A stretch of 64,000 nucleotides of DNA from assembly GCA_020073395.1 (NCBI GenBank), contig JAIQFF010000001.1:51270-115269 (forward strand). Reading direction: 5' to 3'. The notes beneath the pieces were generated by a model. It searched no databases. It had not been told where the DNA came from and saw only the letters and a program-made list of their open reading frames with translations. This DNA is from Terriglobia bacterium (GTDB lineage Bacteria; Acidobacteriota; Terriglobia; Terriglobales; Acidobacteriaceae). The position numbers and the translations under genes are program-made. Positions 20,936 to 40,001 of the stretch are shown piece by piece (position 1 is the first letter of the stretch; each line of letters opens with the position of its first letter).

Positions 20936-23900
20936 ATGCACGATCACAAAGTGCCGCAGCTGATTCAGATCGCCCCGCTCGAACCCCAGGTTGCTCCGGT
21001 CCAACGCGAGACCCAGGCGCAGAGCCCGCACGATCACCAGACCAGGTTTCTGGTCGGGCTCGATGTGGGATCCACCACAGTGAAGGCGGTCGCCGTCGAA
21101 GCGGACAGCGACCGGGTGCTGTGGCAGGACTACCAGCGCCACGAAACCAAGCAGCCCGAGAAGACGCTGGAATTCCTGAAGCGCATGGAAGCCGAGATAG
21201 GAATCAATCGCCACAACACGCGTATGTTCCTGACCGGCTCCGGCGGAGGGGTGATTGCGGACCGGATCGGCGCAAAGTTTGTGCAGGAAGTTACCGCCGT
21301 TTCCCTCGCCGTGGAAAAGCTTCATCCCGAGGTTTACTCCGTCATCGAACTAGGCGGACAGGACGCCAAGATCATCGTCTTCAAGGACGACGAAGAGACC
21401 GGGCGAAAAAAGAAGATCCCATCGATGAATGACAAATGTGCCGGAGGCACAGGCGCGGTCATCGACAAGATCAATGCCAAGCTGAAAATTCCCACTGATC
21501 TGCTCGCCGAACAGCGCTATCACGGCATCAAGCTCCATAAAGTGGCAGGCAAGTGCGGAGTGTTCGCGGAAACCGACATCAACGGGCTGCAAAAGGTCGG
21601 TACACCGCCGGATGAACTGATGGCGTCCTTGTTCGAAGCCATTGTGCTGCAGAACTTGAGCGTTCTCACCCGCGGCCACACATTGCGGCCGCACGTGCTG
21701 CTCTTAGGTGGCCCCAACAGTTTCATTCGCGGCATGCGGGAAGCCTGGCAGGCAAATATTCCGCGCATGTGGCAGGAGCGGAAGGTTGCTCTCCCCGAGG
21801 GCGCGAAACCGGAAGACCTGATCAAAGTGCCGCAGAACGCGCAGTACTTTGCCGCACTGGGCGCCATCGAGTTCGGGCGCACCGAAGACGATTGCGTCGG
21901 CTGCTATCGTGGCTGTGACAATCTGGTTCACTACATTGAGTACGGACGCCAGGAAGAGAAAGCCAAGTCCGGCGGCAAAGGACTGGTGGAGAACCCGGAG
22001 GATCTGCCGGTGTTCAAGGAAGCCTATCGCCGCAAGAAGTTCACGCCCGCAGTCTTTCAGAAAGGAAGCACGGTCGGGGGCTTCATTGGAATTGATGGCG
22101 GCTCCACTTCAACCAAGGCCGTACTGCTCGACGAAAACGGCACCATTCTGTGCAAGGCTTATCAGCTCTCGAACGGCAATCCGATTCAGGACACAATCGA
22201 AATGTTCGAGAACCTGCGCGGACAGGTGGAAGCTCAGAGGGCCAAACTCGAGGTGCTGGGCGTAGCCACGACTGGCTATGCGAAAGACATCCTGAAGGAC
22301 GTGCTCCATGCGGATGTAGCACTGGTCGAGACCGTGGCCCACACGGAGTCGGCGCTTAAGTTTTACGACGATCCCCACGTGATCGTGGATGTGGGCGGGC
22401 AGGACATCAAGATCATCATGCTGCACAACGGACGGGTCAAGGATTTCAAGCTGAACACGCAGTGTTCGGCGGGCAATGGCTACTTTCTGCAATCCACTGC
22501 GGAGGGCTTCGGCCTCGGCGTCGAACAATATGCCGATCTGGCGTTCTCGGCTCAATCCATGCCCGTTTTCGGATACGGCTGCGCCGTCTTCATGCAGTCC
22601 GACATTGTGAACTTCCAGCGGCAAGGCTGGCGGGCGGAAGAAATCCTGGCCGGGCTGGCCGCAGTGCTTCCCAAGAACGTGTTCCTGTATGTGGCCAGCA
22701 TTCCAAATCTGGCTGCCCTCGGCACGCGTTTCGTTCTGCAAGGCGGGACACAGAACAACCTGGCGGTGGTGAAAGCTGAGGTCGACTTCATCAACAACAG
22801 TTTCCGGGCCGCTGGCAAGAAGCCGGAGATTATCGTTCACGAATTCTGCGGCGAATCAGGAGCCATTGGCGCCGCGGCCGAGTCCCTGCGCCTGTGGCGG
22901 AATGGCCAGCAGACCACGTTTGTCGGACTCGATGCCGTCCGCAAAATCGAATACCGTACCACTCGCAACGAAGCCACGCGCTGCTATTTTTGCAAAAACA
23001 ATTGCCTGCGCACTTTTATTGACATCCGCACCGCGCCAAAGGACGACCTGAGCTTTGTGCCGATCCAGAAAGTGACCAAGGTCCCGCTGATGCACGGCGA
23101 GCAGCGCCTGATCATCGCCACCTGCGAAAAGGGTTTGGTCGAGGATGTCAACGACATGAAGGACATCAAGGCGGGAATCGACCAGATCAAAGACAAGCAC
23201 CCGAACTTCGTGGACATCGCGGCGCACGAAGTATTCCGCCCGATCAATCCCAGGAGCGTAGCCGATCCGGTTCCGGTCACGAAATTCTGGAATAAGACAG
23301 CCAAAGAGCGAATTCCGCTGATGGAGAATCGCAAGAAGCTCCGCGTCGGTATTCCGCGGGTCCTCAACATCTACACCTACGCGCCGCTGTTTAACGGTTA
23401 CTTCGAAAGTCTGGGCGTGCAGCCGGAAAACATCATCTATTCCGATTACACCAGTTCCGATCTGTACCGCGCCGGCGCCAGTCGGGGCGCAATCGACCCC
23501 TGCTTCCCCGCCAAGATCGGCATCTCCCACGTTTACAACCTGATTCAGGAAAAGCACCGCAAGAAGCCGCTGAACGTCATCTTCTTCCCGATGTACGACG
23601 TGCTTACTTCGCCGCTGGTCAAGATTGTGGACGCGAACGCATGTCCGACTGTGACAGCAACCCCTGAAACGGTAAAGGCCGCATTCACGAAAGAGAACGA
23701 CGTCTTCGCCGAGCACAACGTGAAGTACGTGGATCCGGTCTTGAACTTTGCCGACCGCAAGCTGTTCGCTCACCAGATGCTGCAGGCATGGCAGCCAATC
23801 CTTGGCTTATCGCAGGAAGAAAATGACCGTGCGGTCGAAGTCGGCTTCAAGGCACTGGCGGACTATGAAGCGAGGATCCGCAGGCGTGCCCGGCAGGTGC

Positions 23901-24538
23901 TCGATCAGCTGGAGCGGGAGGACCGCATCGGCATCGTCATGCTGGGCCGGCCCTATCACCACGATCCTGGGCTGAATCACGAAATCATGGAAGAGTTCCA
24001 GAAGCTGGGCTATCCCATCTTCTCGCAAAACACGCTGCCGCTGGACGAAGACATGCTGGAGCGGCTGTTCGGTGAGGAGGTGAGGGCGAGTGTAATCAGC
24101 AGTCCGCTCGACATTAGCGACGCCTGGAAGAATTCATATTCCTGCAGCACGAACCACAAAGTATGGGCAGCGAAGTTTACTGCTCGGCATCCCAACCTGG
24201 TTGCGCTCGAAATCTCCAGCTTCAAATGCGGACACGACGCCCCCATTTACGGCGTGATTGAAGGCATCATCGAGCAGTCGGGCACGCCCTACTTCTGTTT
24301 CAAAGATCTCGACGAGAACAAGCCGTCTGGTTCGATAAAGATCCGCGTGGAAACCATCGACTATTTCCTGCGCCGTTACCGGGAGGAAGTGATCCGCAAA
24401 CGAAAAGCCGCGGAGGATATTGAGGCTCAACTAGCCGCGCTGGAGGCGCAGTTGCGGCGCGAGCATCTCGGCACCGAAGCGTCGCCGGTAGAAGGAGCAA
24501 CCTGGGAGCAATCGGCGCACACGATGGCTGCTGACTAG
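20936..24538 (+). CDS. Giant acyl-CoA dehydratase activase-related protein: two BadF/BadG-type ATPase modules plus DUF2229/HgdB-like C-terminus
   Basis: Two ASKHA modules: FLVGLDVGSTTVKAV...MNDKCAGGTGAVID...KCGVFAETDI and GFIGIDGGSTSTKAV...NTQCSAGNGYFL...GYGCAVFMQSDIV; C-terminal VGIPRVLNIYTYAPLFNGYFESLG and IGIVMLGRPYHHDPGLNHEI. Confidence 0.9.
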   Translation: MHDHKVPQLIQIAPLEPQVAPVQRETQAQSPHDHQTRFLVGLDVGSTTVKAVAVEADSDRVLWQDYQRHETKQPEKTLEFLKRMEAEIGINRHNTRMFLTGSGGGVIADRIGAKFVQEVTAVSLAVEKLHPEVYSVIELGGQDAKIIVFKDDEETGRKKKIPSMNDKCAGGTGAVIDKINAKLKIPTDLLAEQRYHGIKLHKVAGKCGVFAETDINGLQKVGTPPDELMASLFEAIVLQNLSVLTRGHTLRPHVLLLGGPNSFIRGMREAWQANIPRMWQERKVALPEGAKPEDLIKVPQNAQYFAALGAIEFGRTEDDCVGCYRGCDNLVHYIEYGRQEEKAKSGGKGLVENPEDLPVFKEAYRRKKFTPAVFQKGSTVGGFIGIDGGSTSTKAVLLDENGTILCKAYQLSNGNPIQDTIEMFENLRGQVEAQRAKLEVLGVATTGYAKDILKDVLHADVALVETVAHTESALKFYDDPHVIVDVGGQDIKIIMLHNGRVKDFKLNTQCSAGNGYFLQSTAEGFGLGVEQYADLAFSAQSMPVFGYGCAVFMQSDIVNFQRQGWRAEEILAGLAAVLPKNVFLYVASIPNLAALGTRFVLQGGTQNNLAVVKAEVDFINNSFRAAGKKPEIIVHEFCGESGAIGAAAESLRLWRNGQQTTFVGLDAVRKIEYRTTRNEATRCYFCKNNCLRTFIDIRTAPKDDLSFVPIQKVTKVPLMHGEQRLIIATCEKGLVEDVNDMKDIKAGIDQIKDKHPNFVDIAAHEVFRPINPRSVADPVPVTKFWNKTAKERIPLMENRKKLRVGIPRVLNIYTYAPLFNGYFESLGVQPENIIYSDYTSSDLYRAGASRGAIDPCFPAKIGISHVYNLIQEKHRKKPLNVIFFPMYDVLTSPLVKIVDANACPTVTATPETVKAAFTKENDVFAEHNVKYVDPVLNFADRKLFAHQMLQAWQPILGLSQEENDRAVEVGFKALADYEARIRRRARQVLDQLEREDRIGIVMLGRPYHHDPGLNHEIMEEFQKLGYPIFSQNTLPLDEDMLERLFGEEVRASVISSPLDISDAWKNSYSCSTNHKVWAAKFTARHPNLVALEISSFKCGHDAPIYGVIEGIIEQSGTPYFCFKDLDENKPSGSIKIRVETIDYFLRRYREEVIRKRKAAEDIEAQLAALEAQLRREHLGTEASPVEGATWEQSAHTMAAD

Positions 24539-26830: not shown

Positions 26831-28684
26831 TCAGTGAGCAGCAGGATGCGCAGCGGATGAGGGCATCGAACTTTCCGCCGTTGCCTCAAAAACGATCGGC
26901 CGGGCCGAGACGATCCCCATTCCCTCTTGCACCGTGATGAACTGGTTGGGCTCGACTTTAGCCACGAAATCCTTCTGGCCGCTGGGCCACACGATAGTCA
27001 GGCTCACCGTCTTGCCCTCCTCCGGTTTGCCCAATCCGAAAGTGAGCGGCAGCTCGCTTTGGGACAAGTAGCTCGAACCAGTCTTCACCATGCCAAAAAG
27101 GCGCGTGCCTTTGCTGGTTTTCACCGTTACCTTCGCGCCGATGCCGTCACGATTGGAGCGCGTGCCCACAGTTTTCACTCGCAACATATCGTTCTGGTTA
27201 GCATTGTCGTTGCGCAGCAATCGAGCCGAACCACCGTTGGCGGTAATCAGGAGATCGAGGTCACCGTCATTGTCGAAATCGCCGTTCGCTGCGCCGCGGC
27301 CTACGATGGCACGTTGCAATGCCGATCCGACCTTGGCGGTAACTTCATCGAACTTCTTTTTGCTCAGGTTGCGGAACAGATGCGGGGGCTGGGCATATCT
27401 GACATTGGGCTGCACCACGCTGACATCGTCGGAGACGTGACCGTTGATCGCGAGCAGATCGGGCAAGCCGTCCAGGTCGTAGTCAAAGAAGAATGTGCCG
27501 AAGGTGAGTGACTTGGTGGAGATGCGGGCAATGCCGGTCGCGGGGGCTTCGTCAGTGAACAGGCCTGATCCATCGTTGTGGTAAAGTGCCATGCCCTCAT
27601 TGGTGAAATTGCCGATGACCAGGCTCTGCCAGCCGGAATTGTCGTAGTCCGAGGCGTCTGTGCCCATGCCTGCGCGTACCGTGCCCGAATCGCCGTAGGC
27701 GATGCCGGCGGCGACGGCTACGTCGGTGAAAGTTCCGTTGTGGTTGTTGTGGTAAAGCTTGTTGGGCTCGGTGTCATTCGAGACGACGAGATCCATCCAG
27801 CCGTCGTTGTCGTAGTCCAACATCGCGACCCCGAGCGATTTGCTGGTGGGATCGTAGAGCCCGGCGCGCCGGGTTACGTTCTCAAAAGTCCCGTTGCCCT
27901 TGTTGTGAAACAGGGTTGCGCTCTGTCCTTTGTATCGTTGCGGCGTGCAGTACGACTTGTTCTTGCTGTCGAGCGAACAGTATTGGTCGGTGTCAATCGA
28001 CCATTCGATGTAGTGGGCGACGAACAAGTCGAGCTTGCCGTCGTTGTCATAATCGAACCACAAGGCGCTGCTGGAGAATCCCGGGTCGGCCACGCCTGCT
28101 TTCGCGCTTACGTCGGCAAACTTGCCGTGGCCCAGGTTGCGGAAGAGATGGTTCGATCCGACCGCGGTGATGTAAATGTCCACCTTGCCGTCGTTGTCAT
28201 AGTCGCCCACGGTGCAGCCCTGTCCGTAGATCTCCAGCGCGAGGCCCGCCTGTCGGGTGACGTCCGTGAACGTTCCATTCTGATTGTTGTGATAGAGCGC
28301 GGGATAGGATTTTCCCGTTTGATGACCCGGCCAGTCCATGGAGTTGACCAGCAGGATGTCTTGCCAACCGTCATTATCGTAGTCGAGAAAGCAGGCCCCG
28401 CTGCCCATGGTTTCCGGCAGGTACTTCTTTCCGAACCCGCCAGTGTTGTGCTTGAAATGGATGCCGGCCGGGGCGGTGACATCGGTGAACTCGATCGGTC
28501 CCGAAGGCCGCGCGGCAGCCGGCGCGGGCGTTGGTACCGGAACCGAAGCTGGCTCCACTGCAGGTGAACTGGAAGCCGGTTTGGGTGCAGGAGTTTCCTG
28601 CGGGCTTGAGGCTTGTTGTTTGCACCCAGCCAATGCCAGAAGAGCGAGGAGAGCTACACAACAGGTGACCCGGATTCTCGGCAT
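26831..28684 (-). CDS. CRTAC1-like FG-GAP/VCBS repeat lipoprotein with ASPIC/UnbV C-terminus
   Basis: Lipobox LALAGC; repeated DYDNDGWxDLLLVN units; C-terminal ASPIC-type GLGKPEEGKTVSLTIVWPSGQK. Confidence 0.9.
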   Translation of the reverse strand: MPRIRVTCCVALLALLALAGCKQQASSPQETPAPKPASSSPAVEPASVPVPTPAPAAARPSGPIEFTDVTAPAGIHFKHNTGGFGKKYLPETMGSGACFLDYDNDGWQDILLVNSMDWPGHQTGKSYPALYHNNQNGTFTDVTRQAGLALEIYGQGCTVGDYDNDGKVDIYITAVGSNHLFRNLGHGKFADVSAKAGVADPGFSSSALWFDYDNDGKLDLFVAHYIEWSIDTDQYCSLDSKNKSYCTPQRYKGQSATLFHNKGNGTFENVTRRAGLYDPTSKSLGVAMLDYDNDGWMDLVVSNDTEPNKLYHNNHNGTFTDVAVAAGIAYGDSGTVRAGMGTDASDYDNSGWQSLVIGNFTNEGMALYHNDGSGLFTDEAPATGIARISTKSLTFGTFFFDYDLDGLPDLLAINGHVSDDVSVVQPNVRYAQPPHLFRNLSKKKFDEVTAKVGSALQRAIVGRGAANGDFDNDGDLDLLITANGGSARLLRNDNANQNDMLRVKTVGTRSNRDGIGAKVTVKTSKGTRLFGMVKTGSSYLSQSELPLTFGLGKPEEGKTVSLTIVWPSGQKDFVAKVEPNQFITVQEGMGIVSARPIVFEATAESSMPSSAAHPAAH

Positions 28685-28722
28685 CAGAAGTTCAGTTTCC
28701 CTTTCGCTGTTCTCGGCAAAGA

Positions 28723-29577
28723 CTAGTGCGCTACCGCCAGCTTCTCGGAACTCGCGCGGCGCGAATCCAGCCAGATCTCGATCAGCATGGCGGTCGGTCC
28801 CACGATGAAAAGCGCATAGAAAGGCGCATAGACGATCTGGTACATGCGCATGATCATTTCAGCCAGCGCAACCAGGAATACCACCACGCACTGTCCCGTC
28901 TTTGATCGCACCGTGGTTTTCGGATCGGTAATCATGAAGAAAATGAAAAGCTGGTACATCGGTCCGGTGATCGGCGCAATCTCGGACTGCCACGGGCTTC
29001 CCGTGATCAAGCTTCGCAGAAAGGCGAAAGCGATGAAAGAGACGACATAGGTGAAGGTGATGTGAAAACGCCGCAGGCGCCAGATGATGACCGAGCCCAA
29101 CACCCAGATGACCAACATGGGCAAAAGATAGTTGCCCCACTGAATGCTCAGAGTGGCCACGGTTTCAGGGGCCAGGAAGAGCATCGCCGAGATGCCGAAG
29201 TTGGACGGGTTCCAGATGTGCCGCCCTTTGATGCGCAGCACGTACTTGGACATGATGGAGATGGCGGCGCACAGAGCGTAGGGCCAGAAGGCAGGTGAGC
29301 GCAGCAGAATTCCCACGCTGATTCCGCTGATGTATGCGCTCGCCGGGTGCACCCACTTGTGAAAGAAAATACGGCCCAGGGCCAACTCAGTCGCGATGCT
29401 TACCACGATCGCCAGCAGTGTCCTCTGGTAGCTTTCAAGAATGCCAAACGACAAGTGACCCATGAGCAGGATGCAGGTAATGAAAATCGGGGCAACGTAA
29501 CGGTTGTCGAGACTAATAAAGTGCTTCCAACCAGCAGGCGCGGCCGGTGGCGGTGTCAGGTGCGCGGTCTGGCTCAT
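28723..29577 (-). CDS. RnfD/NqrB-like membrane protein
   Basis: Polytopic; KGRHIWNPSNFGISAMLFL and FFMITDPKTTVRSKTGQ resemble RnfD/NqrB family motifs. Start chosen at MSQTAHL (29577), giving ATGA overlap. Confidence 0.78.
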   Translation of the reverse strand: MSQTAHLTPPPAAPAGWKHFISLDNRYVAPIFITCILLMGHLSFGILESYQRTLLAIVVSIATELALGRIFFHKWVHPASAYISGISVGILLRSPAFWPYALCAAISIMSKYVLRIKGRHIWNPSNFGISAMLFLAPETVATLSIQWGNYLLPMLVIWVLGSVIIWRLRRFHITFTYVVSFIAFAFLRSLITGSPWQSEIAPITGPMYQLFIFFMITDPKTTVRSKTGQCVVVFLVALAEMIMRMYQIVYAPFYALFIVGPTAMLIEIWLDSRRASSEKLAVAH

Positions 29578-31382
29578 GCAGGCTCCTTGATCTTGTGCAG
29601 TTGGCCGGCGGCAGGCTTGTCGATGGTTTGAAGTTTGCCGGAGGGCCAGCGGATTATTGCTCTTTCCATTTGCGGGTATTTTCCCAGGCCAAAATGCAGG
29701 CGGCGCTGGTTCTGCGAGGCGAAACCACTGCCTCCTGAAACTTCCTGCACTTGCTGCTGGCCGTTCCAATACATCGTGACCTGGGCCCCAATCGCGCTGC
29801 GGTTGGTGGCGGTTCCTTCCAGCTCAAATTCGATCCACTCATTTTCCGGCGTCACTGTGTTCTTGTAAACCAGCAACGGGCCCTTCTGGTTGGCGACGAC
29901 GACATCGAGCACGCCGCGATTCCACAAGTCGGCAAGCGCGACCGCGCGACCGTCATAAGTGTCGTTGACCCCGACCGCCTGGGCCACATCGACAAATTTG
30001 CCGGCGCCATCATTCAACCACAGCCGCTTGGATTGATACCCCGACAAACTGCGGCCTTCGAACGCCGGCCAGTTCCTGGCGTCGCCAATGATGGTGCTGT
30101 TGCCGCCGGCCACCTTGGAAAAGTCATACCAGTAGCTTCGGTTGCGGTCGAGCGAGATATAGCCATTGGTCAGGTACAGGTCGAGTGTTCCGTCGTTATT
30201 CAGGTCGCCAAACTGCGCGCCAAAACTCCAGCCGCCAAGCTCGACGCCGAAATCCCGCGCCAGGTTCTCGTACTTGATGGCGTCGCCTGAAGTCCCTTGC
30301 TTGGGCACCCACAGATTGTTTCCCTGGATCAGAATGCCGTCTTCTGAAATATTCGAAACATACACGGCGTACCTGCCCTGGTTCAGGATATCGCCAAAGG
30401 CGGCATTCATCCCGCTCTTGGGTGCAAAGCCCACGCCGGTCTGCTCACCCACTTCATGGAAGCGTTTTCCGTCATTGAAATAGAGCTCGGAAACGCCGTA
30501 GTCGTTGGCAATAAACAAATCCGGATGCCCGCTGCCCCGCAAGTCTGCCGCCGCCGCGGCCAGCGCCCAGCGATGGCTGTTGATACCAACTCTCTCGCTG
30601 ACCTCTTCAAACTTTCCATGGCCAAGATTGTGGAACAGATATTTTCGTCCGCCATTCTTGGCATACTCAAAGCTGTCGGGCATGATCCGGGTGGTGGTGA
30701 GATGCCAGAGGTCGATGCCCTCGGCATAGTAACCGCCGACAAACAAGTCCAGCAGCCCATCGCCATCGTAATCAAACCAGATGGCGGTGTTGGCGTTGAT
30801 CCAGGATGGCAGCCCGGCTTGCTCGCTCACTCGGGTGAAGCCGTGCCCCTGGTCGTTGTGGTAGAGCTCCGGACGTCCCCACTTGATCAGGAACAGGTCA
30901 TCGTATCCGTCATTGTCGTAGTCGCCCCAAACTGCGCCGGTGGAGACTCCTGTGCCCGGCTGATTGACATCCGCAATGCCGAGTTCGCCGGCCACATCTT
31001 TGAAAGTGCCGTCCCCCAGGTTGCGGTACAGACAATTCCTGGTGCCGATGGCGCTGTTGACCACGTAAATGTCCGACCAGCCGTCGCGGTCGAAATCGAC
31101 AATGGATACCGACGCGCCCATCGACGCGACTTCCGGCATGATGGATTCCAGCTTGGGATCGAGCGCCGGGGCTTCATGGACAAACCGGATGCCCGCAGCC
31201 TGAGAAACTTCCTGCAGATAGAAGCCGTGCCGCGCCATCGTCGTCTTTACATCAGCGCTTGATCTATCCGCCGCGCGCCGTGCCGACAGCCGCTTGAGCA
31301 CAAGGGGTGTCACCAACAGTCCGACGAAAACGATACCGAGAGCGGCCCTGGCAATGCGGCTGCCTGTCGTCATCATTGTCAT
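29574..31382 (-). CDS. CRTAC1-like FG-GAP/VCBS repeat protein with ASPIC/UnbV C-terminus
   Basis: N-terminal TM/signal; DFDRDGWSDIYVVNS, DYDNDGYDDLFLIKW repeats; C-terminal RRLHFGLGKYPQMERAIIRWPSGKLQTID. Confidence 0.9.
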   Translation of the reverse strand: MTMMTTGSRIARAALGIVFVGLLVTPLVLKRLSARRAADRSSADVKTTMARHGFYLQEVSQAAGIRFVHEAPALDPKLESIMPEVASMGASVSIVDFDRDGWSDIYVVNSAIGTRNCLYRNLGDGTFKDVAGELGIADVNQPGTGVSTGAVWGDYDNDGYDDLFLIKWGRPELYHNDQGHGFTRVSEQAGLPSWINANTAIWFDYDGDGLLDLFVGGYYAEGIDLWHLTTTRIMPDSFEYAKNGGRKYLFHNLGHGKFEEVSERVGINSHRWALAAAAADLRGSGHPDLFIANDYGVSELYFNDGKRFHEVGEQTGVGFAPKSGMNAAFGDILNQGRYAVYVSNISEDGILIQGNNLWVPKQGTSGDAIKYENLARDFGVELGGWSFGAQFGDLNNDGTLDLYLTNGYISLDRNRSYWYDFSKVAGGNSTIIGDARNWPAFEGRSLSGYQSKRLWLNDGAGKFVDVAQAVGVNDTYDGRAVALADLWNRGVLDVVVANQKGPLLVYKNTVTPENEWIEFELEGTATNRSAIGAQVTMYWNGQQQVQEVSGGSGFASQNQRRLHFGLGKYPQMERAIIRWPSGKLQTIDKPAAGQLHKIKEPA

Positions 31383-34300
31383 TGGTTGAGCCCGCTGCGC
31401 AACGCATTCTTGAAAACTTGAGGAGTGACGTAACGGGTGTGATAGTTCTGCCAGTCTTCAGGATGCTGGCGGTACACCCATTCATCCTCGAGCGCACCCG
31501 GCCGCGTCGTGTACTCGTTCTTGGCGTGATACGGCAAAGGCAGCACAGTTTTGGAGAAAGTCGAATTGTAGTCTCCGTCCTTGATCCAGCCATCGCCCTT
31601 GATGACGAAGTCCCGCACCCAGCCTGCGGGCGGGGGTGGCTGCTGGGGAAAGTGCAGCGCCATCTCATCCCCCGAGTTCACGATGACATAGCGGTCGTCA
31701 ATCTTGTCTATAAGCTCGCGGATGTCTCCGTATCGCGTGTAGTAACCGATCAGGTCGCGCCAGTGCTGTTTGGTGCCTTCAATCTGGTTGTAGTCCGGGA
31801 CTTCCGGCGCTCCCGCGCCCACCGGCATCTGCATCACCGAATAGCCGCGATAGTGCAGGTCGGCGAGCGATGGATCCAAAGTCGTTTCTTTCAGCGGTGC
31901 GTCCGGCGCGCCCTCCGCCCAGTGGATGGCGTCCCAGTAAATTTCCAGATTCGTCCGCAGTCGTACTTTTCGTGGCGTGCCGGAGCGGAAGACGTTCGTC
32001 AGATTGAACAGGATTGTTTTCTTGCGCCCTGCCGGAAAGCCGAGGGTGTTTTGCGCCGTGATCCAGCCGCCGCGGCCGTCAGGTACCTGGACACTCAAGC
32101 CATGGGCGCGCCAGTGGCTGCCCTGCGTGATGGCGACATTCACCGACGACTCGGTATCGTGGATCGAACCCTGAGCGACCAGGTAAAGTGGGCCGTTTTT
32201 GGGCGCGTCATCGCCGAGGTCAACCTCGAGGTAATGATCACGCGTCACGCCCTGGAATTGGCCGCGCCCGAAGTTGTTTACGGCTCTTCCGTCGAGCGTG
32301 CTGACCAACTCGGTGACATCCTGGCCATCGTCGTCGATCGCGCGCGCGATCTGGTGCGGCGTCTTTACCGTGGTGATCCCCAGTTTCGCCGGCGGAATCA
32401 CGAAGCGTTCATCCACAAAGATCTCCGTTCCGGCGGGATGGTCAACCGTCATGAGCGCCAGATAGTCGTAGTAGTAAACTTCCCACAATTCCGCGGTAAC
32501 GCGGATATCGTAGAAGCCATCGTGAGGTACGAGCTGATCGCGCCCGATTTTGTACCACTCTCCAGTGGCCGCGATTTGCGCCGAGCCCAGCGTGTTGATG
32601 CGCAAGCCGATGGCCGAGCCCCACGGAACCGCGTCCTTCACAAACTCCATCTCTTTTCCGTTGTAGGCAAATAGGAAGGGACAGGAGGCTTTCAGGCGCT
32701 GCTCGGTCACCACTTCCTGGTCAGCCTTCACCTCAAACTCGGCTCGCACCGTGCCATTAGGCCAGATGACCCGAACAACTTCAGCCTCGGTCTGCTTACC
32801 CAAACCGAAGTGAAGTTGCGGCCCGGTGATGGGCTGTTTTTGCACCAGCAGCCCGGAGCGGACTTCAATTTCGCCGCCCACGCCAAAGGGATTAATGCGC
32901 TGATCGCCAACCGCCTGGACCGCATGCGGTCGCACGACCTGCCAGTGATAATTCTGCGGGCTCTGATTGACTCCTTGCACCGGTTGTCCATCCGCGGACA
33001 GACCGAGAAGATCGAGATGGCCGTCATTGCCGGTGTCCGCAGCGTCGAACACCAGTGCTGGTCCGGCGGGATGAGTCAACAGCGTGAAGCTGCCCATAAC
33101 GTCGCCGAGCCAGATCATCGCGCCGGCGGTGTTGCCACCCGCAGTTGGCGTGGTGGGGGACAGTAACAGGTCGAGCGCTCCATTGTTATCCAGATCAGCC
33201 ACGTGCAGGCGTACTTCGCCGGCAAGATAGCTGGATGGGTTTGATACTCGGGCAATCTCGGCTGTCTCCCAGCTTTGTCCTTCGTCCTTGTCCGAAATCC
33301 GGAGGATGGCGCCGTCAGCTTGCACAGCCAGCAGATCGAGGGTCCCATCGTTGTTGGCGTCGGCCACGGCCACTGCTTTGACCGCTGTCAAACCCGGTGG
33401 CAACGGGCGCTCGTGGAATTGTCCCTGCCGCAAATTCATGAACACGTGAAGCCGTCCCGCCCCATCGACGATCGCGGCATCGGGATTGCCATCGCCGTCC
33501 AGATCAGCCCAGGCAAAGCCGATCACGCCAGAAAGCCCGTCGAAGGGATGAATGGGGAGGAAGGTGCCGTCCCCATTATTTCTCAAGACGGTCGGAGTGC
33601 CGGTTTTTGCGCCCAGCACGATATCGAGATCGCCGTCGGCTTCAATGTCCACCGCCCAAGCCCCAGCGTATGGCGCATTGGCTACAGATTTGGGTAGGTT
33701 CGCTTGTGCGGTTACATCCGTGAAGGCGCTGGGGCTGTCCTGTCGCAGCAGTCGTACGCCGCCGGCACCGGCCAGCACCAGATCGGTCTTGAAGTCGTAG
33801 TTGAAATCAACTGGGACGATGCCCTCGGGCAGGGGCAACACGCTGGAAGTTCCGCCGGGGAAGGGAATGGTTGCCCCAGTGGACAAATGCACCGTGCGGC
33901 CATTGGCCTCCGCGATCGCAGGCGCGCCCGCACTGCCTAGCGGAATGGCTCCAATCCAATTCCAGCGGGCACTGCCCGTATTGACGAGCGGTTGGAGATT
34001 GAAGTTGAGTGCCGTGTCTGCCGGCGCCGGGCGGAAGACGGGCGACTCGAGTTTCAGGAAATGGGTGAAGGGCTCAGCTTCATCTCCGGGAGGCGCCTTG
34101 ATCGCGGTGAGACTCTGGCGATACTCGGGCACCCGCATCATCACGTTGCGCAGAAACGTTGTCTGGGTCGCGGCGGGACGCAGGTCCGCGCTGGCTGTGG
34201 CAGTCTGCGCAGCTGCCAGCTGATGCTGTACCTCTGCCGGCCACGCTGACGAGCGCGCGCTGATTTGGGCGACGGCCGACTTGAGGGTCGCAGCGTCTCC

Positions 34301-34939
34301 GCGTTTCGCCGCAATCCGGCTCAGTTCCAGCAGGGCGGCCAGGTTGTCCGGTTGCGCGGCCAGAATCTTTTGCAGCAACTGCTGCACTTCGGCCGCGCCG
34401 CTTTCATCGCCTTGCCGTTCCGTTTCTTCTGCTAAGCGGTAGATCGCCCGCAAGTTTTTCGGATTCAGCTCGACCGCTTTGCGCAAGTCGGCAATGGCTT
34501 GCGCGGAATGGCCGCGCTGGCTTTCCAGAATCCCCAGCAGATCGTAGATGCGATCATTCTGCGGGGCCAGATCACGCGCCCGTTCGAGCCGCAGCGCCGC
34601 GGTGTCGTAATTTCTTTGGCGCAGGGCGAGGATTCCCCAGTTGGCCCACCCGGCGGGCTCAACGGGAACAAGCCGTGTCACCTCTGAGAGCCTGCTGTCC
34701 GCGTGCACGTCGTCGCCCACCTGCAGCGCCGCCAGGCCGACATAGAACGCGGAAACCACAGTGCCATATTCCTTGGAGGACGGATCGGGAAGCTTGCCGG
34801 CGGAATGACATCCCGGAGAAGTTGTGATTACGGCAGTCAACAGAAAGAGCACAACCAGATGCTGGAATATCAAACGCCCTCGCTCAGGGATGGTGGACCC
34901 CGAGCGCCCGTCGAGGAAGGATTGGTGATCTTTGGTCAT
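31379..34939 (-). CDS. Large TPR + VCBS/FG-GAP + ASPIC lipoprotein with ~500-aa C-terminal region of unknown function
   Basis: Lipobox-like SPGC, TPR block, VCBS units (DIEADGDLDIVLG, DLDGDGNPDAAIV), ASPIC (LHFGLGKQTEAEVVRVIWPNGT), then CPFLFAYNGKEMEFVKDAVPWGSAIGLRIN onwards. Confidence 0.87.
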   Translation of the reverse strand: MTKDHQSFLDGRSGSTIPERGRLIFQHLVVLFLLTAVITTSPGCHSAGKLPDPSSKEYGTVVSAFYVGLAALQVGDDVHADSRLSEVTRLVPVEPAGWANWGILALRQRNYDTAALRLERARDLAPQNDRIYDLLGILESQRGHSAQAIADLRKAVELNPKNLRAIYRLAEETERQGDESGAAEVQQLLQKILAAQPDNLAALLELSRIAAKRGDAATLKSAVAQISARSSAWPAEVQHQLAAAQTATASADLRPAATQTTFLRNVMMRVPEYRQSLTAIKAPPGDEAEPFTHFLKLESPVFRPAPADTALNFNLQPLVNTGSARWNWIGAIPLGSAGAPAIAEANGRTVHLSTGATIPFPGGTSSVLPLPEGIVPVDFNYDFKTDLVLAGAGGVRLLRQDSPSAFTDVTAQANLPKSVANAPYAGAWAVDIEADGDLDIVLGAKTGTPTVLRNNGDGTFLPIHPFDGLSGVIGFAWADLDGDGNPDAAIVDGAGRLHVFMNLRQGQFHERPLPPGLTAVKAVAVADANNDGTLDLLAVQADGAILRISDKDEGQSWETAEIARVSNPSSYLAGEVRLHVADLDNNGALDLLLSPTTPTAGGNTAGAMIWLGDVMGSFTLLTHPAGPALVFDAADTGNDGHLDLLGLSADGQPVQGVNQSPQNYHWQVVRPHAVQAVGDQRINPFGVGGEIEVRSGLLVQKQPITGPQLHFGLGKQTEAEVVRVIWPNGTVRAEFEVKADQEVVTEQRLKASCPFLFAYNGKEMEFVKDAVPWGSAIGLRINTLGSAQIAATGEWYKIGRDQLVPHDGFYDIRVTAELWEVYYYDYLALMTVDHPAGTEIFVDERFVIPPAKLGITTVKTPHQIARAIDDDGQDVTELVSTLDGRAVNNFGRGQFQGVTRDHYLEVDLGDDAPKNGPLYLVAQGSIHDTESSVNVAITQGSHWRAHGLSVQVPDGRGGWITAQNTLGFPAGRKKTILFNLTNVFRSGTPRKVRLRTNLEIYWDAIHWAEGAPDAPLKETTLDPSLADLHYRGYSVMQMPVGAGAPEVPDYNQIEGTKQHWRDLIGYYTRYGDIRELIDKIDDRYVIVNSGDEMALHFPQQPPPPAGWVRDFVIKGDGWIKDGDYNSTFSKTVLPLPYHAKNEYTTRPGALEDEWVYRQHPEDWQNYHTRYVTPQVFKNALRSGLNQ

Positions 34940-35123
34940 TGAGTTTTCTCGCTGCAAGCCTCAGCGGCTGAAGCCGCCATTCACATAGTGCTCATGATGC
35001 ACCGCCAAAGCGCTGCTCCACCCAAGCGCCGCTCCTCCCAAGACCTGCTCCACCTAAAACCTGCTTCCGACCCAAGCTGTTACCACCCAAGCTGCAACAA
35101 AAGAGGATTCCTCCGGCCAATAG

Positions 35124-35669
35124 CTATGCGGCCTGTAATCTTTTCATCCGGCTTCGCCGCCGTGAAATGCCCCGAAACCAGAGAAACCCCACCGCCAAGA
35201 AAGGTAACAGATAAAACAGAAGGTCCCATTTGCCAAAACCCACTGGAGTCGCTTCCACTCTCGAAAATTCTTCTCCGCGGCCCTGCGAGCTTTCGAGGAC
35301 CAGGCGGACCCGCCAAAACTCCTGCCGATCGAACTCGACGATGGCGTTGTATTGTTGCTGGCCGCCACTGTTGTCCTTAGTGGCCGTGTAAACTGCCTCG
35401 GGCAGGCGTCCGCTTTCCGGCTGAACGCCGATCTGCAACTTCAGATCCTTGGGGACGGTCCCCCCTGGAATCGGTTCTACAAAGACAAAAAAAGTGCCGG
35501 TGCCTACGTCGGGATGCGTCCACAGAGAAATGACGCAGGGGCCAACTTTGTGATTCTCAATGATGGGGAAGGGCGGGCCGTTGTGGGCCCGGGCTGGCGT
35601 GGGCAACATCAAAACGAGCAGGCCCGCAAGACCGAAATCAATTCCCCGCAGGATAGTGTGGTGGTTCAT
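35124..35669 (-). CDS. Hypothetical membrane-anchored protein of the redox cluster
   Basis: Signal/TM at N-terminus, C-terminal TM plus basic tail (FYLLPFLAVGFLWFRGISRRRSRMKRLQ). Start moved to MNHHTILRG because the longer N-terminus (MGRTLLSDTV) is translated from a palindromic repeat. Confidence 0.7.
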   Translation of the reverse strand: MNHHTILRGIDFGLAGLLVLMLPTPARAHNGPPFPIIENHKVGPCVISLWTHPDVGTGTFFVFVEPIPGGTVPKDLKLQIGVQPESGRLPEAVYTATKDNSGGQQQYNAIVEFDRQEFWRVRLVLESSQGRGEEFSRVEATPVGFGKWDLLFYLLPFLAVGFLWFRGISRRRSRMKRLQAA

Positions 35670-35724
35670 CCTCAGCTCGAGCATAGCAACGAAAAGAACA
35701 CCCACTCCAAGAGCGACTTCAACC

Positions 35725-35753
35725 GTGTCGGACAACAGTGTCCGACCCACACC
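35725..35753. repeat. Palindromic repeat, GTCGGACA family
   Basis: gtgtcggacaacagtgtccgacccacacc; reverse complement matches the 3125 copy. Confidence 0.85.
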
Positions 35754-35760
35754 ATCCCCC

Positions 35761-37224
35761 CTAGCCGCTCATCAGGGTGGCACGCATTTCCATGGGTTGG
35801 AACAGGAGCCACATGGATGCGACAAAGAGAATCAGACCTATTGTCGCCCACGGAATAAATACCCGCATCGGTTGCCGGGGCGAATCCTCTTCTGCCAAGC
35901 CATAGGTCACGGTCAGTGAGCCGGCAAATCCCAGCAAGAGGAGCCCGATTTCGATCATCAGCACGATATTCGCTGGCAGGCCCGTAAGAGTCCAGCGTGG
36001 CTCGCCCAAGACAGGCCACCCCAGACTCGCAAGCGCGCTCTGAGTTACGGGAATGAAGGTGTAGAGTCCGGTTAAGAAATGAAATCCGTAGTGGGCGAGC
36101 CACATCCCGAAGCCCATGGGCACGAGGCCGTAAGTGTATCGCACCATCAGCGGGAGCAGGGCGCGCCGGCTGCCCGCCCAAACTCGGGTCAGCCATGCGG
36201 CCAGTCCCAGCAGCAGGACCGGCTCCAGAATCAGAAAGAAGGCGAAGATGATCCCGAGCACCGGCGCTTCGTGGCTCACGTGCAATATTTTTCCCAGCCA
36301 GCTCTCGACCGCGTAAACCGGACTGACCATGCCAAAAGCGTTCAGCAAGGCGCCAAAGGTGAACACTATGGCCAGCGCGGCCAGGTCTTTGCGGCGAGAG
36401 AAATAACCAAGTCCCGATCGCAATGGATCAGTCAGGAGTTCTTCACCGGGCATCCGGCTCAGGATTCCGACGTTGTCATGCGGGCAGGCGTGCACACAAT
36501 CCAGACAGAATGTGCAATCCATGTTGCCCACTTTGCGGGGCTGAAACAGGGCCAGCTCACAGCCGCGGATTGTGACCAGGTCCGAAACCGGTTCGCGCCG
36601 GCCGCGAATGCAATCCAGCGTATGGCAACTGGTGCACACCGCCTGGTCCCGTACCTTCACCTCAAGAGGAGAAAGCGTCGAGGCCACAAAGTTGAACTGT
36701 CCGATGGGGCAAACAAACTTGCAAAACGAAGCGTGCTTAAAAAAGCCGTCCACTACGAGCACGGTCAAGAAGTACGCGAGAATCAGCCAGGCCGTCCACC
36801 AGGGCGAGGACCACAGATCGAACAACTCGTAGAGAAAGAGAATCAGGATAAAGAGTGCCAGGGAAAGCCACTTGTTGCGCAGCGCCCGCGGCCAGTCGAA
36901 GCGAGGCGTGAAGAATCGCCGCGCGGCCTGGCGTACCAGCATGAACGGGCAAGCCAGGCAGAAAAAGTTCCCCGCCGCGAGCAGCACCAGTACCAGTACT
37001 CCGCGAAAGTGAAGCCAGCTCAGGGTGGTCGCCAGATTCTTCGGGGCGAGTGTGGGGCCGAACAATCCATGCAGGATCATTACGACGCTGACGATGAGCA
37101 GTGGAGCCTGGAGCAGCGGGCGGGCATGACGCCAGCGAAACAGATGGCCCAGGCCAGGAACTTGCATTAAGTCAAAGGGCAGCGCTTCGGGAGCTTCCAG
37201 GGCCGGGATGGATGATGGGTTCAA
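35761..37224 (-). CDS. Polytopic 4Fe-4S-binding membrane protein (polyferredoxin, FesM/NosH/CcoG-like)
   Basis: FFCLACPFMLV, FCKFVCPIGQFN, VCTSCHTLDC, DCTFCLDCVHACPHDNVG; many TM helices. Confidence 0.9.
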   Translation of the reverse strand: MNPSSIPALEAPEALPFDLMQVPGLGHLFRWRHARPLLQAPLLIVSVVMILHGLFGPTLAPKNLATTLSWLHFRGVLVLVLLAAGNFFCLACPFMLVRQAARRFFTPRFDWPRALRNKWLSLALFILILFLYELFDLWSSPWWTAWLILAYFLTVLVVDGFFKHASFCKFVCPIGQFNFVASTLSPLEVKVRDQAVCTSCHTLDCIRGRREPVSDLVTIRGCELALFQPRKVGNMDCTFCLDCVHACPHDNVGILSRMPGEELLTDPLRSGLGYFSRRKDLAALAIVFTFGALLNAFGMVSPVYAVESWLGKILHVSHEAPVLGIIFAFFLILEPVLLLGLAAWLTRVWAGSRRALLPLMVRYTYGLVPMGFGMWLAHYGFHFLTGLYTFIPVTQSALASLGWPVLGEPRWTLTGLPANIVLMIEIGLLLLGFAGSLTVTYGLAEEDSPRQPMRVFIPWATIGLILFVASMWLLFQPMEMRATLMSG

Positions 37225-37232
37225 CAGCTTGC

Positions 37233-37655
37233 CTAGTTGGGTCGGACGCCCCGCACATCAATCTGGCGTTCCAACTTTTGTCCGCCGGGCAGGGTGACAT
37301 GGAGGAGGATAACCCAATCTCCCGCCATCTCGAACGTGAGATGAGCCTGGTAGCGGCCGGGCTCGATTTCCCTGACTTCGCCAAAGACCGGAGACATGCC
37401 CGCGTGCGACATGTCCGCCTCCAACGCAATGTGCGCTCCCGGAATGGCTTTTCCCGCCGGATCGACCAGCCGAAAGTTCACTACTGTAGGCCCGATCCGA
37501 GCCGGTTCGGGCGAGATCTCGTGCTCAATCGTAATCGTGCGCGACGAGTCCGCTGGTCTGGAGCAGGCGGTTATGAGCAGAGTTGCAGCGCAGGCGCACA
37601 GCAGGAGTTGCCGATATTTTCCTGGGAGCGTGCGAGCCAGCCACCCGCTCCATCT
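37233..37655 (-). CDS. FixH/YtkA-like lipoprotein (start uncertain)
   Basis: In-frame KYRQLLLCACAATLLITACSRP (lipobox) followed by PARIGPTVVNFRLVDPAGKAIPGAHIALEADMSHAGMSPVFGEVREIEPGRYQAHLTFEMAGDWVILLHVTLPGG. The ORF-track extension to 38129 overlaps the upstream gene in another frame. Confidence 0.75.
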   Translation of the reverse strand, partial: RWSGWLARTLPGKYRQLLLCACAATLLITACSRPADSSRTITIEHEISPEPARIGPTVVNFRLVDPAGKAIPGAHIALEADMSHAGMSPVFGEVREIEPGRYQAHLTFEMAGDWVILLHVTLPGGQKLERQIDVRGVRPN

Positions 37656-37702
37656 AAAGGCGAATGCGATCTTGCGATTCCTCGTACTCTGATGCTTTCG
37701 GA

Positions 37703-38311
37703 TCAGGCAGCTTGCATCGACGGATTGTGGTCCCATGCGCAGGAGCAAACCATCGCCCTCTCCTCCGCCTCCGACGGGAACATGTGATAGTACATGGCGA
37801 TGACCATGGGAATAAACACGATCGAGTTGTAGAAGAGATGGAGTTCCACGCGCGGAATCACCAGCTGCAAAACGCTGAACGGCACCGGCTTGCCCCAGAA
37901 ATTGTGGTGGGCCGTGGCCTGCCAAATCAGCAGGAAATGCTCGATGTGATGCCAGAACTGGATGACCAGCGCCACCGTCCACCAAGTGTGCGCCCGCCCC
38001 GTAAATCCTTTGCGCAGGACCCAAATGCCTGCAAGCATGACGATGGCGTAGCCATAGTGCAGCGCTTCGGACTTGATCAACCAGGGGTACCACAAACCGA
38101 GAATGCCATTGGCTTTGGGCCGGGGCCATCCCATGACATAAATCTGGTAAGCCTGAGCGAGGTGCTCGCCCCAGTGTGCCAGCACGATGAACATGAAAAC
38201 CTGCAAGGCGCGTTCGTGCCAGCGGCTGTTTAGCTTCTCGTAGAAGCTGGCATTGGCCGCCGGGGCAGTATGGATCTGGGGAAGCGCAGGATTCGAAACT
38301 GCCATGACCAT
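37703..38311 (-). CDS. His-rich polytopic membrane protein of unknown function
   Basis: HWGEHLAQAY, EALHYGY, QFWHHIEHFLLIWQATAHHNF, ELHLFYN, MYYHMF within predicted TM segments. Confidence 0.82.
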   Translation of the reverse strand: MVMAVSNPALPQIHTAPAANASFYEKLNSRWHERALQVFMFIVLAHWGEHLAQAYQIYVMGWPRPKANGILGLWYPWLIKSEALHYGYAIVMLAGIWVLRKGFTGRAHTWWTVALVIQFWHHIEHFLLIWQATAHHNFWGKPVPFSVLQLVIPRVELHLFYNSIVFIPMVIAMYYHMFPSEAEERAMVCSCAWDHNPSMQAA

Positions 38312-38342
38312 GCTCCTTGAAACCTTAAACTTACCGCAAAAA

Positions 38343-38358
38343 TGTGACCACGATCACA
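38343..38358. promoter_or_regulatory. Crp/Fnr-family palindrome TGTGACCACGATCACA
   Basis: Exact TGTGA-N6-TCACA, centred ~40 nt upstream of the start codon of the His-rich membrane gene. Confidence 0.65.
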
Positions 38359-38423
38359 CTTTGTCCACTTGGGGTCAATAGTTGAAATATATTATCCCCC
38401 CGTGACCAGTCTTAACCACGTCC

Positions 38424-40001
38424 TTAAAAGTGGAGGTTGGTCTCCAGGTAGGCAAACTGCCCGTTGGGATCCTTGGGATAAATCTTCGCAATCACCGTCT
38501 TGCCCCAGGCATGGCCGTAGTACAGCGTAGTACTGAAAGAGCGGGTGATCTGGTAGTCGGCGCTGAGATCCCAGACGTTGGCCAAGCCACTGAAATCGTT
38601 GCTGGGACGGCCGGTATAACCAAAAGTCTTCGGCTGAAATGCGCCTCCACCGAGGTACCAGAAATCGGCCGAGTTGGCCAGCCGGAGAGCGTGCCCTTCG
38701 GAACGCAGCGCCAGTTTCGAGGTTGGCTTGAGGTTCAGAGTGGCGTAGAAATCCACGTTGTTCATCATGTTGTAGAAGGGAAAGCGCGCGTACTGGCGCG
38801 GTGTGGTCAAGACCTGGAAGAAAGTCCCGTGAGTCGAGTCATTGGGATTTCCATCGCCGCTGCCATATGAAAAGCCGGCGCTGAGCCATGGCTTGAGGTG
38901 CTTCACCGAGGGCTGCCAGCCGAGTTCGCCCACGAAGGCGCTGGCACGTTGGCTGAGCGCGCCCCAGGAGCCGCCCTGGTAAACGCCCCACACCAGAAAA
39001 TCAAACTTGCCGGCGTTCGTGGTGCTGATCACCTGCGCGTAGTTGGCGCCGTAGGTGGCCAACTGAACCTTGCCCAGGTCCGCAGTGCGCACTGGCACGG
39101 GACGGTTGTCGGTCTTCAATATGGTATTGCGGTCATCCACGTAACCCAGGCCGAACACGCGTAGTTGCGCCTCGCCATGCGGCGTATTGATGGACCGGGT
39201 GAAGGCGCCGTAGTAAACCTCGATGTCCAGCTCAGGCATTCCGTCGGTCTGGAGAATTCCAGCAGTCGGTCGAGCGCTGAAAAAGGTGAAGTTGTTCTTT
39301 CCGGAATTCAGGGAGAACTGGCCGCCGTCAAAAGTTCGCTGGACCGCAGTGAATCCGAAGTTGGAGATCAGTCGATGCGCGATCCTGCTCTGTACGACGG
39401 CTGCGAGCACGGGGTCCTTGGGCTTGACTTCCATGCCATCGAAATATTCGAAGCGCCCCAGTTTCACGCGCGCCGGCCCGAGATGCTTGAAGTCCACGAA
39501 TGCCTGTTTCAGGAACACGCTGGCGTTGTTGGACTCGTTATTGTTGGCCACATAGTAGGACCCGCCCAGGCCAAGCTGGCCCGCGGGACCCGCGACTACC
39601 GCGTCATTGGGAAGACCAAGAATGGACGGCTGTTCCATTTCGGCGAACCAATCGAGTTTTTCCCTGGTCTGACCAATCCCGATACGCAGCAGGGAGTGCC
39701 ACAACGGGTAGTCGCTGTTTCCCGTGGGCGCCTCGAACCAGTTCCAACCTTCCGCGCGGGTGCGCCAGTTGATCGTAATCTCGAATGGACCCAGCTTATG
39801 CTTTTGGGCTTGTGCTGAGGCAGGATGTGCCGCTTGTGGTGGCTTCGGCGCTGCCGCGGATGTTGATGGGGCGGAGACGGCCGCCTGCTGCACCGGCACT
39901 GACGGCTGCTCCACGGCGGTCTGGGACTGCTGTCCTACCAATTGTGCAGTACCTATCAGTAAAATCGCCGCGCTGGCATACGCTATTGCTCCCAGTTTCA
40001 T
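38424..40001 (-). CDS. Alginate-export-type outer membrane porin
   Basis: Signal peptide from MKLGAIAYASAAILLIG; beta-barrel-like body (FGFTAVQRTFDGGQF..., YGHAWGKTVIAKIYPKDPNGQFAYLETNLHF with aromatic C-terminus). Confidence 0.8.
   Translation of the reverse strand: MKLGAIAYASAAILLIGTAQLVGQQSQTAVEQPSVPVQQAAVSAPSTSAAAPKPPQAAHPASAQAQKHKLGPFEITINWRTRAEGWNWFEAPTGNSDYPLWHSLLRIGIGQTREKLDWFAEMEQPSILGLPNDAVVAGPAGQLGLGGSYYVANNNESNNASVFLKQAFVDFKHLGPARVKLGRFEYFDGMEVKPKDPVLAAVVQSRIAHRLISNFGFTAVQRTFDGGQFSLNSGKNNFTFFSARPTAGILQTDGMPELDIEVYYGAFTRSINTPHGEAQLRVFGLGYVDDRNTILKTDNRPVPVRTADLGKVQLATYGANYAQVISTTNAGKFDFLVWGVYQGGSWGALSQRASAFVGELGWQPSVKHLKPWLSAGFSYGSGDGNPNDSTHGTFFQVLTTPRQYARFPFYNMMNNVDFYATLNLKPTSKLALRSEGHALRLANSADFWYLGGGAFQPKTFGYTGRPSNDFSGLANVWDLSADYQITRSFSTTLYYGHAWGKTVIAKIYPKDPNGQFAYLETNLHF

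Follow-up and report, generated by a model that had tools for sequence, protein, structure and literature searches.

A multi-phylum bacterial operon with an UnbV/UnbU-type pair and exchangeable copper-type or ABC transporter modules

What could an outer-membrane porin, a membrane polyferredoxin, an RnfD-like protein and three FG-GAP proteins be doing side by side in one genome? The question is raised by nine genes, all on the minus strand, at positions 26831-40001 of the window, the 64,000-nucleotide stretch of Terriglobia DNA analyzed here. The initial annotation had described nine same-strand genes with two ATGA overlaps, and both features are present in the sequence after re-derivation of the open reading frames with inspection of start codons. 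The ninth gene, which that annotation did not name, encodes the 181-aa protein g5 (35124-35669). Domains were assigned by Pfam/NCBIfam searches, which recognized three FG-GAP/UnbV_ASPIC proteins, one of them with TPRs, and assigned no family to g5 or to a His-rich membrane protein that we call hisMP. In a promoter and terminator scan of the region, promoters were at chance level.

A core of three genes shared across phyla

At the center of the cluster are FGTPR, FG2 and the RnfD-like protein. FGTPR (31379-34939) combines TPR, FG-GAP and ASPIC domains with a conserved 440-aa C-terminal beta domain, for which only partial jelly-roll/CBM32/discoidin-like matches of low coverage were found; sequence matches of this domain to replication factor C were judged spurious. 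FG2 (29574-31382) is an FG-GAP/ASPIC protein with an N-terminal membrane anchor, and its alignment holds no conserved His/Cys set fit for a copper site. It is followed by the RnfD-like membrane protein (28723-29577). The two ATGA overlaps, each of 4 nt, join FGTPR to FG2 (31379-31382) and FG2 to the RnfD-like gene (29574-29577).

Scanning 85,488 species genomes with an alignment of the RnfD-like protein yielded 316 relatives, and we analyzed 93 loci, comprising the best 80 of the 316 and 13 others. The best 80 are from Acidobacteriota, Planctomycetota, Pseudomonadota metagenome-assembled genomes, Rhodothermota and Armatimonadota, and almost all of them keep the order FGTPR-FG2-RnfD-like. FG2 and the RnfD-like gene are same-strand neighbors in 82 of 82 loci, with the exact 4-nt overlap in 65; FGTPR and FG2 are same-strand neighbors in 71 of 75, with a 4-nt overlap in 50. 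The recurrence of this order in Acidobacteriota, Planctomycetota, Rhodothermota and Pseudomonadota is far beyond chance, and the three genes are the tightly coupled core of a multi-phylum operon. The earlier proposal of one conserved, undescribed envelope system is borne out to this extent, as is the guess that it would occur in Planctomycetota; a gene order confined to close relatives, which had been named as the outcome that would speak against the proposal, is not what the loci show.

The claim of a single nine-gene system holds as regards a conserved operon, but not as regards an undivided unit. The operon consists of a fixed core and an exchangeable module, and the porin (Alginate_exp type, Pfam E 1.3e-23; 38424-40001) is an occasional accessory, found in 9 of 25 loci with module I and 2 of 28 with module II, the two modules described below. 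FG3 (26831-28684), an FG-GAP/ASPIC lipoprotein that groups with the ordinary CRTAC1 lineage in our tree, is a frequent companion (55 of 80 loci), located 3' of the core in most Acidobacteriota. Of 297 genomes in the phylum, 14 have a member of the close RnfD-like subfamily (≥57% identity) and three have hisMP.

Two modules that replace one another

Module I, comprising hisMP, a YtkA-type lipoprotein, the polyferredoxin and g5, lies upstream of the core in 26 of the 93 loci. hisMP (37703-38311) is predicted to be a four-helix membrane bundle (AlphaFold, pLDDT 85) with two HxxEH motifs; the residues conserved in its alignment are H46/E49/H50, H85, H121/E124/H125, H158 and a C-terminal CxC tail. 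A Foldseek comparison of its fold with the PDB gave no significant match. We rejected hisMP as a CtaG homologue on the basis of an hhalign probability of 3.9% against a two-sequence CtaG alignment and the lack of a Pfam hit. In the nearest relative of the window locus, L104, neither hisMP nor the porin is present at the corresponding place, and hisMP is therefore not indispensable in that organism.

The lipoprotein (37233 to approximately 37736) had been called FixH/YtkA-like. The YtkA assignment stands (PF13115, 45.2 bits versus a cut-off of 25.9), whereas FixH gave no match in Pfam/NCBIfam. Its lipobox Cys and copper-type M-x-H-x-G-M motif are invariant in the alignment, and its profile matches PDB entry 9ll2, 'Copper resistance protein' (E 2e-5). 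The start of the gene is unsure because no ATG, GTG or TTG lies between the lipobox and the ATG at 37736, which is itself inside hisMP. The polyferredoxin (35761-37224) has a NapH/CcoG-like architecture with invariant Cys sets, although its matches are weak: it matches the NapH/MauN family far under the family cut-off (E 8.5e-10), matches Fer4 at sub-threshold scores only, and does not match the CcoG model. More distant homologues are fused to Caa3_CtaG (E 6e-57 and 6e-56), to a heavy-metal-binding domain (HMBD; E 6e-10) or, by weak matches, to COX2/cupredoxin-like domains. g5 is a periplasmic protein with a C-terminal anchor, in which the residue next to the predicted signal peptide, with the cleavage site judged by eye, is His in 26 of 26 sequences and is followed by a GPP(F/Y)P motif (HxGPPFP in the window). 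An N-terminal His of a mature protein is among the known copper ligands, and that of g5 may be another.

Cupric reductase activity is known for CcoG, also a membrane polyferredoxin (PMC7558416), and the assembly of CuA in Bacillus involves YtkA domains (PMC13344008). Taken together, module I looks like a copper-handling set, with copper itself as the probable metal, and the metal handling proposed in the initial annotation fits these four upstream genes. Cytochrome oxidase assembly was considered as a role and rejected, as there are no oxidase genes nearby and the core was in no oxidase cluster seen.

Module II, found upstream or downstream of the core in 28 of the 93 loci, is a NitT/TauT-type ABC transporter (binding protein, permeases and ATPase), a kind of importer that is not usual for copper. 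It sometimes includes a MerP/CopZ-like protein, and a MerP/CopZ-like HMA neighbor is present in 11 loci. The binding protein contains an invariant TCQLTCPVTDY motif, and its closest solved proteins with a named ligand are of taurine, sulfonate and nitrate types. Modules I and II are together in none of the 93 loci; 39 have neither, with some of those loci incomplete. The Fisher value for this exclusion, 2e-5, is indicative only because the loci are related and some are incomplete. In addition, a genome-level search for the module-II binding protein found it in neither of the two module-I genomes tested but in seven other genomes that have the core, and the I/II label switches at least eight times along the RnfD-like tree. 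Such repeated replacement suggests that the two modules fill an equivalent need of the core, which would not hold for an electron donor and an importer, and it amounts to an experiment of nature on the requirements of the core.

An optional third set, consisting of FAD-dependent halogenase-like, RaSEA-like radical SAM and asparagine-synthetase-like genes, adjoins the core, irrespective of the module, in about 31-33 of 80 loci. In three loci (L157, L161 and L167) the triad is on the same strand as the core. A search for its radical SAM gene found none in the window genome and several other core genomes.

Kinship with the UnbV/UnbU pair of enediyne producers

An RnfD-like protein invites an electron-transfer reading, and the initial annotation described the cluster as a membrane redox system. 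Comparison with genuine RnfD argues against this. The protein matches NQR2_RnfD_RnfE in Pfam (33.6 bits versus a cut-off of 27.7), but reaches only 18 bits with the RnfD model TIGR01946, for which the cut-off is 207. In our tree, the core RnfD-like proteins and UnbU fall outside genuine RnfD (support 100). All core sequences have 94 residues between the NPxN and TDP motifs; the spacing is 101-103 in UnbU and 93 in a third orphan RnfD-like group located beside DUF2330-like genes, compared to 134-149 in genuine RnfD, and the missing segment is the place of the covalent FMN loop of RnfD. The S/T-GAT flavinylation motif is absent from the core sequences except for one TGAT (L159), which may or may not lie at the loop; since only one of five genuine RnfD sequences contained the motif, the spacing is the stronger test. 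No other Rnf/Nqr subunit is encoded among the nine genes, and no genuine RnfD in the window genome.

The relatives of the core lie instead in enediyne biosynthesis. In our trees, FG2 clusters with UnbV and apart from the other CRTAC1 proteins (support 93), the core RnfD-like protein clusters with UnbU (support 90, with one long-branch Metabacillus row included), and the order UnbV-UnbU is shared by Streptomyces globisporus C-1027, S. finlayi and two Acidobacteriota enediyne clusters (L203 and L208). By gene order and by both trees, the latter with moderate support, the cluster contains an UnbV-UnbU pair like that of the enediyne cassette, at an identity of only 27-30%. hisMP has homologues in the same setting. 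In the acidobacterial genome G257, one (52% identity over 149 aa) is flanked by DUF1702 and a polyketide synthase of 1921 aa (KS-AT-ACP-KR-DH), in a cluster that also encodes a hot-dog thioesterase and proteins of the ASPIC/UnbV and RnfD-like types; genome G152 has DUF1702-UnbV-UnbU-PKSE. These gene sets are the enediyne genes E3/E4/E5/E(/E10) (PMC5181780). The C-1027 producer carries the pair on plasmid SGLP1, where the annotations read 'RnfABCDGE type electron transport complex subunit D' for UnbU and 'CRTAC1 family protein' for UnbV; five genes away, a hypothetical protein is 54-58% identical to hisMP (54% over the full length to that of the window), CxC tail included. All four Streptomyces plasmids read have this arrangement. 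UnbV/UnbU also occur in a Serratia ketosynthase cluster.

DUF1702 (E3) is absent from the window genome and the core genomes, and full-length PKSE was found in G257 and G152 only, with none in the window genome or the core genomes. On these grounds we rejected the window genome as an enediyne producer, and the substrate of the core cannot be an enediyne polyene. In the open-access literature surveyed, we found no paper joining UnbV with RnfD or naming UnbU; the individual parts are known, and their combination is new as far as that literature shows.

Possible functions and comparison with known systems

The enediyne cassette reportedly iodinates and dehydrogenates a polyene to give iodinated polyynes, according to a 2024 paper on a diiodotetrayne. 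If this is the work of UnbV/UnbU, the core would most probably be an oxidative enzyme of the envelope with another substrate, and module I its copper supply. We therefore favor, at a little short of an even chance, an envelope UnbV/UnbU-type oxidative machine supplied with copper, or an equivalent, by exchangeable modules. FGTPR, FG2 and the RnfD-like protein would act in the envelope, with a hydrophobic compound or a small molecule as substrate, in line with the role proposed for UnbV/UnbU in enediyne pathways. The YtkA lipoprotein and g5, through its N-terminal His, would bind periplasmic copper, which the polyferredoxin may reduce or hold as Cu(I), and hisMP, with its His/Glu residues and CxC tail, could pass on or use the metal. 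The role of module I would fall, in many relatives, to an ABC importer whose binding protein bears Cys, often accompanied by a MerP/CopZ-like protein. We infer that the metal is copper, the direction of its flow and the oxidizing activity of the core. To our knowledge, neither UnbV nor UnbU has a proven individual chemistry, so the statement that the core works like them inherits that uncertainty.

Other explanations are less probable. An envelope electron-transfer chain, starting from quinol or the cytosol and running through the polyferredoxin and RnfD-like protein to FG-GAP proteins as secreted redox partners, would account for the invariant Cys sets and the fold kinship with RnfD, and NapH-like modules serve many extracytosolic enzymes (PMC8238504). 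We consider it unlikely, however: in relatives an ABC importer takes the place of the polyferredoxin and the two never occur together, so that the polyferredoxin is not a fixed electron donor of the core, the RnfD-like protein lacks both the flavin loop and the RnfD spacing, and the domain searches of the nine genes recognized neither an FMN-binding domain nor a cytochrome or other redox partner. Also conceivable, at a lower level of probability, is uptake or detoxification of a soft metal or metal complex that the modules capture and the core processes or stores. In its favor are the best scores of the ABC subunits, which are with SaoP/SaoA of the Sec-assisted organometallic (SAO) system but below cut-offs, the invariant Cys-bearing motif, the HMA neighbors and a Metabacillus homologue near mer genes. 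Against it are the taurine, sulfonate and nitrate ligands of the closest solved binding proteins, the lack of MerA, MerB or a P-type ATPase in the clusters seen, and the UnbV/UnbU kinship, which points to biosynthesis. The SAO system itself was rejected, as scores were below cut-offs and no Sao selenoproteins were seen.

Biosynthesis could instead mean a dedicated natural-product pathway, which would use the core and the triad to produce a small molecule for export, perhaps a metallophore, with copper or the importer as part of the pathway. The frequency of the triad beside the core, its shared strand in three loci and the Serratia ketosynthase cluster favor such a pathway, but the radical SAM gene is missing from the window genome and several other genomes with the core, and the cluster has no carrier protein or known scaffold gene; we rate it as improbable as metal uptake. 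Finally, RnfD/NqrB are related to ammonium/urea transporters (PMC12174285), and with its flavin loop lost the RnfD-like/UnbU protein might be a solute channel, with the FG-GAP proteins as binding or adhesion partners. We find this very unlikely, since membership of the conserved enediyne cassette speaks for participation in the chemistry.

The mode of action of enediyne genes E4/E5, which we equate with UnbV/UnbU, has been open for two decades. A multi-phylum operon that combines an UnbV/UnbU-type pair with hisMP and metal-type genes, free of polyketide synthase, leads to a testable hypothesis, that copper takes part in E4/E5 chemistry, and culturable hosts such as Silvibacterium bohemicum, Stieleria and Rhodopirellula-type strains carry the system. 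A broader version of the favored copper-supplied oxidative machine, which we regard as doubtful, is that UnbV/UnbU are, in general, a membrane oxidase or halogenase that depends on copper, occurs in several phyla without polyketide synthases and is loaded by interchangeable metal-supply modules, and that enediyne producers recruited the pair together with hisMP. If true, this would be a new class of envelope metalloenzyme system.

Among known systems, Rnf/Nqr shares with the cluster a distant fold and the C-terminal TDP motif of RnfD/NqrB, but the RnfD-like protein is in a separate clade, lacks the flavin loop and has no other subunit beside it. NapH-like flavinylated electron-transfer systems (Meheust 2021, PMC8238504) likewise place a NapH-type polyferredoxin in an envelope cluster, but the window cluster has no FMN-binding domain or ApbE. 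In ccoGHIS/fixGHIS, which supplies copper to cbb3 oxidase, a membrane polyferredoxin also neighbors a small anchored periplasmic protein; here, that protein is YtkA rather than FixH, the polyferredoxin has CtaG-fused homologues and no CcoG-model match, and CcoI ATPase, CcoS and oxidase are not among the nine genes. With the YtkA/CtaK and Caa3_CtaG copper-insertion factors, the features in common are the YtkA domain, the CtaG-fused polyferredoxin homologues and a His-rich membrane protein beside the polyferredoxin; hisMP, however, is a four-helix protein not detectably related to CtaG, and oxidase genes are lacking. The enediyne cassette E3/E4/E5/E/E10 (DUF1702-UnbV-UnbU-PKSE-TE, as for C-1027 in Streptomyces globisporus) differs in that the window cluster lacks PKSE, thioesterase and DUF1702 and adds FGTPR and a copper or ABC module, but the two share the UnbV-UnbU pair in the same order, and a hisMP homologue lies beside the C-1027 cassette.

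The closest relative and an unrelated gene in the window

In the closest relative, locus L104, whose RnfD-like protein shares 91% identity, the porin and the His-rich membrane protein (hisMP) are missing (1776-2227) and the flanking neighbours otherwise match, reflecting either a deletion or an assembly fault. A 1200-aa protein of the window (20936-24538), whose sequence resembles an acyl-CoA dehydratase activase in fused form with two ASKHA domains, has no relation to the nine-gene cluster finding.

Relatives of individual components

The binding protein of module II, the NitT/TauT-type transporter set of relatives (L087, 582-1640, and its relatives), carries an invariant TCQLTCPVTDY motif; to our knowledge, a motif of this type is not expected in taurine/nitrate-type binding proteins. 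Elsewhere, polyferredoxins carry a fused domain of the Caa3_CtaG, heavy-metal-binding, cupredoxin-like or His-rich kind (L033, L034, L036-L045), and apparently represent an uncharted copper-related polyferredoxin family. A third orphan RnfD-like group adjoins a DUF2330-like protein, identified by eye (L099, L100, L101), and the two may be fused in L102 and L103. On a Metabacillus plasmid (L226, 9333-10720), the RnfD-like gene is immediately preceded by a redoxin-domain gene, with mer and copZ genes close by.

Homologues of hisMP also occur on plasmids. On SGLP1 of Streptomyces globisporus C-1027 (L223, 17953-18982), the gene next after the homologue encodes a two-helix protein of 142 aa that carries a CAGHAGHTTCEW motif and belongs to no Pfam family; a hypothetical gene occupies this position in each of the four Streptomyces plasmids that were read. 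Another homologue (45%; L225, 11980-12444) comes from the cyanobacterium Geminocystis; the plasmid that carries it is small and phage-like, and no UnbU is annotated close to the gene.

Enediyne-type cassettes and a variant

Two Acidobacteriota genomes contain enediyne-type cassettes with DUF1702, UnbV, UnbU and PKSE: G257 (L208, contig C4, 606-11349) and G152 (L203, contig C48, 8903-18631). A thioesterase is present in one of the two, and a hisMP homologue lies within one of the two. The Serratia proteamaculans plasmid cluster (L227, 1-14820) has DUF1702, UnbV-like and UnbU-like genes, with stand-alone ketosynthases, a carrier protein and an aminotransferase in place of PKSE.
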